Part shown: one piece after another, positions 2 to 4,918 of the stretch
Position numbering within the stretch: position 1 is the first letter of the stretch
Layout of the letters: each line of letters begins with the position of its first letter
Origin: Parcubacteria group bacterium GW2011_GWA1_40_21
GTDB taxonomy: Bacteria; Patescibacteriota; Minisyncoccia; Phycocordibacterales; GWA1-40-21
Assembly: GCA_000996205.1 (NCBI GenBank)
Contig: LBYO01000003.1
Coordinates: forward strand, 1-41,582
Length of the DNA stretch: 41,582 nucleotides
Direction: 5' to 3'
Translations under genes and position numbers: made by a program
Notes under the pieces: generated by a model
Told to the model about the DNA's origin: nothing
Databases searched by the model: none
Seen by the model: only the letters and a program-made list of their open reading frames with translations

Positions 2-55
2 GACAAAAGAAATGTCCTCATCAATTCCACCGGCCAGATTTCCATCGGCAGATAG
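2..55 (+). CDS. C-terminal end of a pseudopilin-like protein (partial)
   Basis: The window opens inside a gene. Frame 2 reads 17 residues ending in VLINSTGQISIGR and then TAG. A C-terminus with an I/V-N-S-T/S-G-x-I/V pattern is common in GspH/FimT-like minor pseudopilins, and three further pilin-like genes follow directly, so this is probably the upstream member of the same pilus operon. The two other forward frames also stay open to about position 90 but give no recognisable peptide. The call rests on a very short stretch and on context. Confidence 0.5.
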   Translation, partial: DKRNVLINSTGQISIGR

Positions 56-79: not shown

Positions 80-823
80 ATGAACACTAATATTATTACA
101 AAAAAACTCTCCCCTAAAAAGCTAAAAAGCTACCCGCCCGCCACGACTGCTGTCGGGCATGTCGGGCGCGGCAAGCTACAAGCTAACCGTTTTCATCCAT
201 CAGCTTCCCGAAACCTACAACTCCGCCTCATCGGCGGACGAGCCACAACCAAAAACCCAACCTCATCGGCGGGCAGGCTACAACCTAATCGCGGTTTCAC
301 CCTGATTGAAATGCTCGTCTCAATTTCCGTCTTTATGGTGGTTATGCTTGTCGCCGCGAGCTCGCTTTTGAGCATTATTGACGGCAACAACAAAGCCCAG
401 TCCCTGAAGTCCGCGATAAACAATTTGAATTTCGCACTTGAGAGTATGCAGAAAAATATAAGGGTGGGAACAAGTTATTCGGGGGGTGGGAGTTGTTCTC
501 CCGCCGATACTTGCATAATCTTCGATTCCTACAAAGACCTTAATGGTGATGGTAATATGGATAATGATACTGTTATATATAAGTATAATGATACCGAAAA
601 ATCAATAGAGAGATGTGAGAATATCTCAGGCGTAACTTGTAGTTTAAGCAGTAATTTCACCAGATTGACCGCGCCGGAAGTAAAAATAACTGATATGAAA
701 TTTTATATTGACAGCAGTTCTCAGCCAAGAGTCTTGATTACCATAAGTGGCGAAGCGGGAACTAAGGAAAGAATAAAAACAAATTTTAATCTTCAGACGA
801 CCGTATCGCAAAGATCATTCTAA
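80..823 (+). CDS. Type IV pilin-like / minor pseudopilin with very long leader
   Basis: A 247-residue protein with a class III (prepilin) signal: RGFTLIEMLVSISVF at about residues 72-86, with Glu at +5 after the expected G/F cleavage, followed by a hydrophobic helix and a globular C-terminal domain. Such proteins are cut by prepilin peptidase (PilD) and built into a surface pilus or pseudopilus. The leader before the cleavage site is about 72 residues, whereas usual leaders are 5-30. No ATG, GTG or TTG lies in frame between the ATG at 80 and the cleavage site, so the long leader is not just a mis-picked start. Most of the leader is encoded by DNA repeats (134-172 and 220-294) that recur in the next two genes. 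The gene lies 20 nt upstream of the next pilin-like gene, probably in one operon. The exact pilin subtype is unclear. Confidence 0.85.
   Translation: MNTNIITKKLSPKKLKSYPPATTAVGHVGRGKLQANRFHPSASRNLQLRLIGGRATTKNPTSSAGRLQPNRGFTLIEMLVSISVFMVVMLVAASSLLSIIDGNNKAQSLKSAINNLNFALESMQKNIRVGTSYSGGGSCSPADTCIIFDSYKDLNGDGNMDNDTVIYKYNDTEKSIERCENISGVTCSLSSNFTRLTAPEVKITDMKFYIDSSSQPRVLITISGEAGTKERIKTNFNLQTTVSQRSF
134..172. repeat. 39-bp repeat, copy 1 (GC-rich, in pilin leader)
   Basis: Identical by eye over 39 bp to 939-977. It contains repeated GTCGGGC/GCCCG words able to fold back. In this copy it is read in the frame that gives PPATTAVGHVGRG. In the other copy another frame is used, so the conservation is at DNA level rather than protein level. 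Confidence 0.85.
220..294. repeat. 75-bp perfect direct repeat, copy 1
   Basis: Bases 220-294 match 1522-1596 without a mismatch by eye. The element carries two CATCGGCGG words and ends with CTACAACCTAATCGCGG, which resembles the CCTANAA heptamer arrays elsewhere in the window. It stops exactly at the codons for the Arg-Gly before the prepilin cleavage site. Confidence 0.9.
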
Positions 824-843
824 TTGAGTAAGATACAATCTAT

Positions 844-1494
844 ATGAAATTTATAAAAATAATAAAAAATAAAATCCTAGCCGCCAGTTGCAATTTGTCA
901 TGCGTCAGGAAACTCTTCCCTAAAAACCTACCACCTATCCGCCCGCCACGACTGCTGTCGGGCATGTCGGGCGCGGCCGCCTACAACCTACAACCTTCCG
1001 CCAAAGGTTTCACCCTCATAGAAACTCTCGTCGCCATCTCAATCCTTATGGTCGCGGTCGCGAGCCCCTTAACTATCGCCCAGAAAGGATTAGCTTCAGC
1101 TATCTATGCCAAAGATCAAATCATCGCCTCTTATCTGGCGCAAGACGCGATAGAATACATAATAAACGCGAGCGATAAAAATGTCGCGGATGGAAAAGGC
1201 TGGCTTCTGGGAATAAGCGATAATTGCGGAACGGCTTGCGCGGTTAACACAAGAATAGACAGCGGAATTGCCTCTTGCGCTGGAACTTGCGACGCTCTTA
1301 ATTACAACGAGTCAACAAATATTTACAGCCATGATTCTACAGGTGGTGACAATAAAGCGTCGCCATTCACGAGAACAGTTAAAGCTACAGAAGGTCCGAC
1401 CGACGAAGCGCTGATTACCGTGACGATGTCTTGGAAAGACAAAGGAGCTGATAGGAGCCTTAATTTTTACACGAGAATATTTAATTGGAGATAA
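844..1494 (+). CDS. Type IV pilin-like / GspI-like pseudopilin
   Basis: A 216-residue protein with the prepilin motif KGFTLIETLVAISILMVAV at about residues 54-72, Glu at +5, a hydrophobic stalk helix, and a variable C-terminal domain with four Cys in its middle (CGTAC and CAGTC contexts) that could form disulfides. From ATG 844 the leader is about 54 residues. An in-frame ATG at 964 would give a leader of about 14 residues, which is a more usual length. That ATG lies inside a 39-bp repeat (939-977) also found in the preceding gene but read there in another frame. It probably acts in the same pilus as its neighbours, as a minor subunit. Confidence 0.82.
   Translation: MKFIKIIKNKILAASCNLSCVRKLFPKNLPPIRPPRLLSGMSGAAAYNLQPSAKGFTLIETLVAISILMVAVASPLTIAQKGLASAIYAKDQIIASYLAQDAIEYIINASDKNVADGKGWLLGISDNCGTACAVNTRIDSGIASCAGTCDALNYNESTNIYSHDSTGGDNKASPFTRTVKATEGPTDEALITVTMSWKDKGADRSLNFYTRIFNWR
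939..977. repeat. 39-bp repeat, copy 2
   Basis: Second identical copy of the element at 134-172. It supplies leader codons of the second pilin-like gene (RPPRLLSGMSGAA) and contains an in-frame ATG at 964 that could serve as the start. Confidence 0.85.
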
Positions 1495-1501
1495 TAATAT
1501 T

Positions 1502-2086
1502 ATGGCAAATAAAAACCTACCACTCCGCCTCATCGGCGGACGAGCCACAACCAAAAACCCAACCTCATCGGCGGGCAGGCTACAACCTAATCGCGGATTC
1601 GCGATGCTGTTTTCCGTCCTCGTATCCAGCTTGCTTGTCGTTATCGGACTGTCAATCTTCAACATCACCCTCAAAGAATTGACCATTTCAACCTCGGCAA
1701 GAGAATCTCAGACGGCTTTTTACGCCGCCAACAGCGGACTGGAATGCGCCCTTCGGTGGGATAATTTAAATGGAAATGGCTTAAGAAGCGCCTTCGCTTC
1801 CACTTCCGCTTCGGATGAAATTGACAGTGCCAAAAGCGTAATAGCTTTATGCAATACCGTGAGAGTAAACAGCGCCACCTCCGCCACTACGGAATTTGAA
1901 TTTAAAGTAAATAACTCGGGTGATTCCAATGGTCCTTGCGCCAAAGTTAAGGTTGTAAAGACTCCCGGTTCTCCGACTGTTGAAAAGATGACCACGGTAA
2001 TTGAATCTCGTGGCAAGAACATTTGCGACACAAGCGGCAGAAGAGTTGAAAGAGGCTTGAAAGCCACTATAATTACGCAGATGTAG
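1502..2086 (+). CDS. PilX/GspK-like pilus assembly protein
   Basis: A 194-residue protein. After a leader of about 32 residues comes RGFAMLFSVLVSSLLVVIG, a prepilin-like N-terminus that lacks the usual Glu at +5. This is typical of PilX/GspK-type minor pilins. It continues with ESQTAFYAANSGLECALRW, the pattern found after the stalk helix in PilX-like proteins of Gram-positives and Patescibacteria. Residues 8-32 of the leader are encoded by the 75-bp repeat 1522-1596, identical to 220-294 in the first pilin gene and read in the same frame. The gene starts 7 nt after the previous gene, so these genes are probably co-transcribed. Confidence 0.78.
   Translation: MANKNLPLRLIGGRATTKNPTSSAGRLQPNRGFAMLFSVLVSSLLVVIGLSIFNITLKELTISTSARESQTAFYAANSGLECALRWDNLNGNGLRSAFASTSASDEIDSAKSVIALCNTVRVNSATSATTEFEFKVNNSGDSNGPCAKVKVVKTPGSPTVEKMTTVIESRGKNICDTSGRRVERGLKATIITQM
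1522..1596. repeat. 75-bp perfect direct repeat, copy 2
   Basis: Identical to 220-294, in the same reading frame and at the same place relative to the pilin cleavage site (the last codons before Gly-Phe), in the PilX-like gene. Confidence 0.9.
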
Positions 2087-2125: not shown

Positions 2126-4237
<2,112 letters not shown>

Positions 4238-4817: not shown

Positions 4818-4828
4818 ATTTTTTAAAA

Positions 4829-4918
4829 GGTTATAGGTATTAGGTTGTAGGTTTAAGATAGGAAAATTAATTTTTTAATCCAAAACCTATAACCTAACAC
4901 CTACAAACTAAAACCTTC
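4829..4918. repeat. Heptamer-array inverted repeat between YqeY-like gene and rmuC
   Basis: The left arm reads GGTTATAGGTATTAGGTTG and the right arm CCTATAACCTAACACCTAC, followed by AAACTAAAACCTTCCG. Both arms consist of 7-nt steps of the pattern CCTANAA (or its complement), with an A/T-rich centre. The same design recurs at 2100-2160, 6036-6119, 21838-21912, 28404-28516, 28856-28976 and 32130-32166. Confidence 0.75.

Follow-up and report, generated by a model that had tools for sequence, protein, structure and literature searches.

The stretch of DNA analysed here (the window) comprises 41,582 nucleotides and is contig LBYO01000003.1 of Parcubacteria group bacterium GW2011_GWA1_40_21, named C3 in the genome G000, which spans about 761 kb in 26 contigs and is about 98% complete. 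Close to its start lie three pilin-like genes, pilins 1, 2 and 3, followed by ligA. The part of each gene between the start codon and the predicted Gly-Phe prepilin cleavage site, the leader, carries repeats that we term element A (pilins 1 and 3) and element B (pilins 1 and 2) (Table 1). Of the nine pilin-like genes identified in the genome, six have leader repeats. A preliminary description had noticed a perfect 75-bp repeat in the leaders of pilins 1 and 3; it missed pilin 2 with its own leader repeat, as well as the dispersal of the repeats beyond pilin genes.

Table 1. Features of the window, with the basis of each assignment
Feature	Position	Strand	Basis and remarks
FimT/GspH-like pilin, C-terminal end (DKRNVLINSTGQISIGR, then stop)	2..55	+	Translation; orthologous operons have similar C-termini (..VTALGQIYVE)
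Pilin 1, type IV pilin-like, GFTLIEMLVSIS	80..823	+	PF07963 E 2e-8
Element B copy 1, pilin 1 leader	117..185	+	GC-rich palindrome with its core at 134-172 and AAAGCTA heptamer-like units on either side
Element A copy 1, pilin 1 leader	211..298	+	Includes 220-294
Pilin 2, GFTLIETLVAIS, PilV-type position	844..1494	+	PF07963 E 1.5e-6
Element B copy 2, pilin 2 leader	922..990	+	Followed by heptamers CCTACAACCTACAACCT, 980-996
Pilin 3, PilX-like, GFAMLFSVLVSS	1502..2086	+	PilX_N E 0.018, under the curated cut-off; position before ligA
Element A copy 2, pilin 3 leader	1513..1600	+	86/88 identical to 211-298; includes 1522-1596
Putative palindromic insertion in frame in ligA, with two arms of 23 nt separated by 5 nt	2515..2565	+	Inverted repeat in the open reading frame 2165-4237
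Intergenic inverted pair of heptamer arrays (TAGGTTG-type, AT-rich centre, CAACCTA-type)	4828..4909		Hairpin, fold z -7.4

Pilins 1 and 2 pass the Pfam N_methyl cut-off, which covers the Gly-Phe and Glu5 positions, with 33.9 and 28 bits against 21.2. Pilin 3 fails the PilX_N cut-off (15.5 bits, 25.5 required), and it looks like a pilin from its Gly-Phe, its hydrophobic segment and its place before ligA, a position that it also has in other genomes. The leaders of pilins 1 and 3 extend over 80-292 and 1502-1594, with the Gly-1 codons at 293-295 and 1595 and with ATG80 and ATG1502 as the sole in-frame starts. There are thus 71 and 31 codons ahead of the Gly codon, or 72 and 32 residues counting Gly-1, as the preliminary description had estimated. 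It had also considered that a downstream start might leave the repeat untranslated. In pilins 1 and 3 the only in-frame starts lie upstream of the 75-mer, and the repeat is therefore translated if the Gly-Phe and the following helix are made. The pilin 2 leader (844-1005, Gly-1 codon at 1006) has the alternative in-frame starts TTG895 and ATG964, the latter within element B. The 17-residue fragment at the window start is, judging from its translation, probably the end of a pilin that begins at the 3' end of contig C7.

The 75-mer at 220-294 is identical to that at 1522-1596 and is read in the same frame. It lies within a longer composite of 88 bp, in which short palindromes are embedded among 7-nt tandem units, and this composite belongs to a family dispersed through the genome. 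The two 88-bp blocks differ at two positions, and the 100 nt on either side have chance identity. The two pilin-like genes are otherwise unrelated. Element A is built of GC-rich palindromes between heptamer-type units. In its first copy, the palindrome CCGCCTCATCGGCGG occupies 223-237, a second half-palindrome follows at 261-277, and the element ends in heptamer-type sequence (ACCTACA..., CTACAACCTAA). The palindromic structure seen in CCGCCTCATCGGCGG is also found in the stem of element B. The two copies of element B in the window share 84% identity with a 39-nt identical core, and the third good copy in the genome (G000:C7:23678-23741) sits in the pilin at the 3' end of contig C7. All three good copies are thus in pilin leaders. 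They are translated as PPATTAVGHVGRGK, PPRLLSGMSGAA and LPARHDCCRACRARQ, each of the three pilins using a different frame, and what is kept and shared is therefore DNA rather than peptide.

The repeats extend far beyond the pilin genes, as seen in genome-wide counts that rest on word searches and selected stretches. A search for the 75-mer recovered only the two full copies, plus five partial ones, in its own genome. The element A core occurs at intergenic sites on contigs C18 and C1, and also inside IscS-, Fmt- and LepA-like open reading frames (ORFs). In the IscS/NifS-like protein (G000:C5:58361) it adds about 13 residues in frame, right before FHTDA. The frames of the Fmt-like (G000:C23:4880) and LepA-like (G000:C23:7767) genes shift across the copy, reflecting either insertion that is not always in frame, with insertional damage, or slippage, or an assembly error. 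Across the order, element A gave merely short partial matches in two other genomes and is therefore not widely shared. The heptamer word CCTACAACCTA has 96 matches in the genome, as compared with none for a reversed control word, and the heptamer units include ACAACCT, AAAGCTA and ATTAGAA. Among 56 heptamer clusters, 50 are intergenic and six lie within ORFs, as delimited by a simple ORF-based gene caller. All six are in the stop-free orientation and three are pilin leaders, while one (C6:54176) may in fact lie upstream of its gene, the start having been mis-called. Perfect arrays of four to five units stand between the start and the cleavage site of the pilins at C7:22065 and C19:5575.

Two further repeats of the window lie outside the pilin genes. 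The palindrome in ligA encodes about 19 residues directly ahead of the adenylation motif KIDGL, and from general knowledge of LigA sequences we take it to be an insertion. A heptamer array is likewise present in a ligA-like ORF adjoining the pilin operon of a relative (G025, L127 2088-2123). Inverted heptamer arrays with an AT-rich centre, of the kind found at 4828-4909, also occur in several intergenic regions of contig C12, always with the G-rich arm first.

We then compared these leaders with those of related genomes. Orthologues of the pilins in the order have short leaders of unrelated sequence, with medians of 16-17 codons (maxima 35 and 51) as compared with 71 and 54 codons here. The best-scoring major pilins of the relatives gave no sign of repeats; the repeats belong to minor pilins. 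In 185 pilin upstream regions from 38 relatives, nine contain a period-7 tandem array (at least 17 of 21 positions), whereas the other periods from 4 to 15 were found once or not at all, except for the multiple 14 (four cases). Similarly, 750 kb from 39 genomes, in stretches chosen around pilins, hold 24 period-7 arrays in nine genomes, as against zero to two for each other period from 4 to 13, and nine of the 24 are at pilin leaders. The array units vary by genome (ACATGCT, ATTTCGG, AAAAGCT, AAAACTC, AAAATCC and AAAACTA). The sister genome G001, of the same genus, has many CCTAAAA arrays, and its units are ACCTGAA and CCTAAAA as opposed to CCTACAA in the genome of the window. The unit of G025 is dispersed in its own genome, with 16 matches against one for a control.

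Scanning species genomes for a heptamer directly ahead of a Gly-Phe-Thr motif returned 27 stretches. Real tandem arrays were among them in Patescibacteria (Vogelbacteria, Doudnabacteria and a marine metagenome-assembled genome) and in the AlinenLipids bin, and the remaining stretches are single chance words. Shorter or imperfect heptamer arrays are present in leaders of G025, G042, Vogelbacteria and Doudnabacteria. In genomes of other families, the UvrC-like gene of G053 and the ThrS-like gene of G086 have in-frame CCTACAA arrays, the former with a GC-rich palindrome inside.

The sharing of leader DNA between neighbouring pilins recurs in other genomes with unrelated sequences, and the shared blocks again end at or near the cleavage site. 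The clearest cases are G027 and G038. In G027, two non-homologous pilins (MNYELRIKNTLKKIS...FLSVSKKQK) have about 100 nt of leader in common, ending at the Gly codon; the second pilin is PilX-like and adjoins ligA, as in the window, and the copies differ by a GC-rich palindrome within a heptamer array. In G038, the pilin 1 counterpart and a PilX-like gene share 99 nt at 93% identity, ending 9 nt before the Gly codon, and the block takes in the region around the start codon. Further examples are two adjacent pilins of G006 (40 nt at 97.5%), three adjacent pilins of G025 (90-93%) and G024 (33 nt at 94%). The differences within the shared blocks are mostly non-synonymous and are not concentrated at third positions, although such counts are less meaningful for the gapped pairs of G027, G006 and G024. 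A conserved leader peptide is therefore disfavoured as the cause of the identity.

The enrichment in pilins is also evident from a direct count in the surveyed stretches. Among pilin-like genes whose leaders span 10 codons or more, the leader DNA recurs elsewhere in 19 of 190 cases, as compared with two of 474 other genes, for which the first 90 nt were used (Fisher p 3e-9). True paralogues and doubtful pilin calls account for some of the 19, and the genes of an operon are not independent, so that this p value overstates the certainty; the direction is still clear.

We propose that the DNA encoding the leaders acts as a tolerant sink in which dispersed repeats collect, and that recombination exchanges leaders there, a reading to which we assign a probability of about 0.68. 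Dispersed palindromes and heptamer arrays would enter or expand at many sites, mainly between genes but also in reading frames on the stop-free strand, and most coding insertions would be purged. Prepilins are processed by prepilin peptidase. Because this enzyme would remove the leader, almost any stop-free sequence between a pilin start codon and the cleavage site may be accepted at low cost. Tolerance of the repeat in a discarded peptide had already been put forward in the preliminary description, and it is well supported by the short, different leaders of the relatives, the pilin bias of the repeated leaders and the differences in shared blocks, which are mostly non-synonymous and spread over codon positions. 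Neighbouring pilin genes may swap leader segments through recombination between the repeats, or gene conversion may homogenise them. The near-identity of copies 1.3 kb apart would then reflect recent copying of leader DNA between the pilin genes, by gene conversion or by duplication of the segment. The suggestion that the shared sequence serves recombination is thus plausible and agrees with the recurrence in other genomes.

Several observations weigh against this proposal. Complete copies of element A, and likewise the good copies of element B, occur only in pilin leaders, and a function specific to leaders would fit this equally. In nearly all heptamer leaders found, other lineages included, the last CAACCT unit precedes the Gly codon by 6 or 9 nt, in the same phase; the distance is 15 nt in G042, with the phase unchanged, and 13 nt in the pilin at the end of C7. 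This recurring phase gives mostly a QPxxGF end across different lineages, including the pilins at G000:C7:22065 and G000:C19:5575, and it is not predicted by neutrality, although several of the cases are non-independent. No mobilising enzyme was identified. A search of G001, made without a positive control, found no pilin 1 orthologue, so that the closest relative offered no allele from before the insertion. Finally, the stretches surveyed in the relatives were picked around pilin genes, which under-samples the density of arrays elsewhere.

The heptamers could alternatively be contingency (phase-variation) loci: a unit of 7 nt is not a multiple of three, so that slippage in the leader would shift the frame and turn the pilin off or on. 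The perfect arrays in the leaders at C7:22065 and C19:5575, the shorter or imperfect ones in relatives, the different units of the sister genomes and the frame shifts on contig C23 are all in line with such switching. However, the leaders of the window combine just one or two heptamers with palindromes, the arrays are almost all intergenic and every pilin found is in frame, while assemblies cannot show copy-number polymorphism; we consider this explanation unlikely. A combination, in which the leaders form an exchangeable, slippage-prone cassette that is swapped between non-homologous pilins and also switches minor pilins on and off, is a speculative reading with a slim chance of being correct. 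If it holds, a contingency system would lie concealed in a peptide that does not become part of the mature pilus. An RNA function that couples the genes, raised in the preliminary description, would have shared hairpins in the leader mRNA coordinate the translation, stability or targeting of the minor pilins and so match their amounts. The repeats do fold, with z scores of -3.0 and -2.0 for element B, -2.0 and -1.3 for element A and the far lower value of the intergenic inverted array, the G038 block covers the start-codon region, and the parallel TAACTGA heptamers just upstream of start codons were proposed as post-transcriptional sites (PMC4679880). Yet the leader repeats fold only modestly better than shuffled sequences, and different genomes share wholly different, at times A-rich, leader blocks. 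The coupling has weak support and is quite improbable. A known structured RNA was rejected, as no Rfam family matched near its gathering score and the best matches were far below.

Mobilisation by the Y1 transposases of the genome, as a repetitive extragenic palindromic (REP) element with its REP-associated tyrosine transposase (RAYT) or as a miniature inverted-repeat transposable element, would account for short palindromes in a genome with two Y1_Tnp genes. However, palindromes of other kinds (TTTGGACATCCGATGTCCAAA; CTGTGGGTATCTGATACCCACAG), and neither element A or B nor a heptamer array, surround both genes (G000:C5:11090 and G000:C9:4313), and on this ground we rejected such an origin as very unlikely. 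The palindromes by the Y1 genes, CTGTGGGTATCTGATACCCACAG being present several times, are themselves possible REP/RAYT systems, and a ATCTAGAGT tandem repeat lies beside the second. A leader peptide required by both pilins for a common export or peptidase step would explain why pilins 1 and 3 read element A in an equal frame and why the phase of the QPxxGF end recurs. There is, however, no conservation of the leader repeats at the peptide level: element B is read in three frames, the orthologues have unrelated short leaders and the shared blocks change mostly non-synonymously. This candidate was likewise rejected and is highly improbable, and the converse pattern, the same leader peptide with diverged DNA, which the preliminary description had named as speaking against its own view, was not seen. 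Contig breaks adjoin the repeats at the end of C7 and the start of C3, as might be expected of an artefact in a metagenome-assembled genome, but the copies differ at two of 88 bases, have different unique flanks and are on the same contig, and analogous cases exist in several independent genomes, so that we give an artefact hardly any credence.

If the leader-coding DNA is indeed a tolerant sink, the discarded pilin leader would be an evolutionary blind spot, in which dispersed repeats accumulate and recombine in genomes that are usually called streamlined. This would provide a simple explanation for the long, repetitive and odd N-termini predicted for pilins in such genomes, and a start-site annotation would not be wrong merely for a leader that looks like junk. 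The arrays also supply candidates for contingency loci in organisms whose pili are relevant to contact with a host. In open-access papers we found neither heptamer arrays nor shared leaders described for Patescibacteria pilins, and neither of the first two known repeat systems considered below described in pilin leaders.

The closest parallels are two families of dispersed repeats. Rickettsia palindromic elements (RPEs) are short dispersed palindromes, found between genes and in frame within unrelated ORFs (PMC10969869), and the likeness drawn here follows from this description. Element A resembles them in being palindromic and in having its core at two intergenic sites and three non-pilin ORF sites as well as in pilin leaders. 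The element lies in frame in pilins 1 and 3 and in the IscS-like gene, and the frame is broken across it in the Fmt- and LepA-like genes. Unlike RPEs of about 150 bp, the present repeats measure 40-90 bp, are flanked by 7-nt tandem units and are concentrated in pilin leaders, where they are common to neighbouring pilins up to the cleavage site and read in different frames. The TAACTGA heptamers of Beggiatoaceae and Cyanobacteria are mainly intergenic; one of their strands has stops in every frame while the opposite one reads as an open heptapeptide repeat, and their in-ORF cases use the open strand near protein ends (PMC4679880). The excess of a 7-nt unit over other periods and chance, the predominance of intergenic clusters and the sense orientation of every in-ORF array are shared with them, but the unit here is ACAACCT or another genome-specific heptamer, inverted pairs forming hairpins are frequent and pilin leaders are the main coding site. 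The likeness to REP/RAYT systems extends to short palindromes and the presence of Y1 genes, but not to repeats flanking these genes. With simple-sequence contingency loci, the leaders have in common non-triplet tandem repeats in the translated 5' region of a gene for a surface structure, a likeness apparent at the level of sequence, whereas the repeats in the genes of the window are imperfect and composite.
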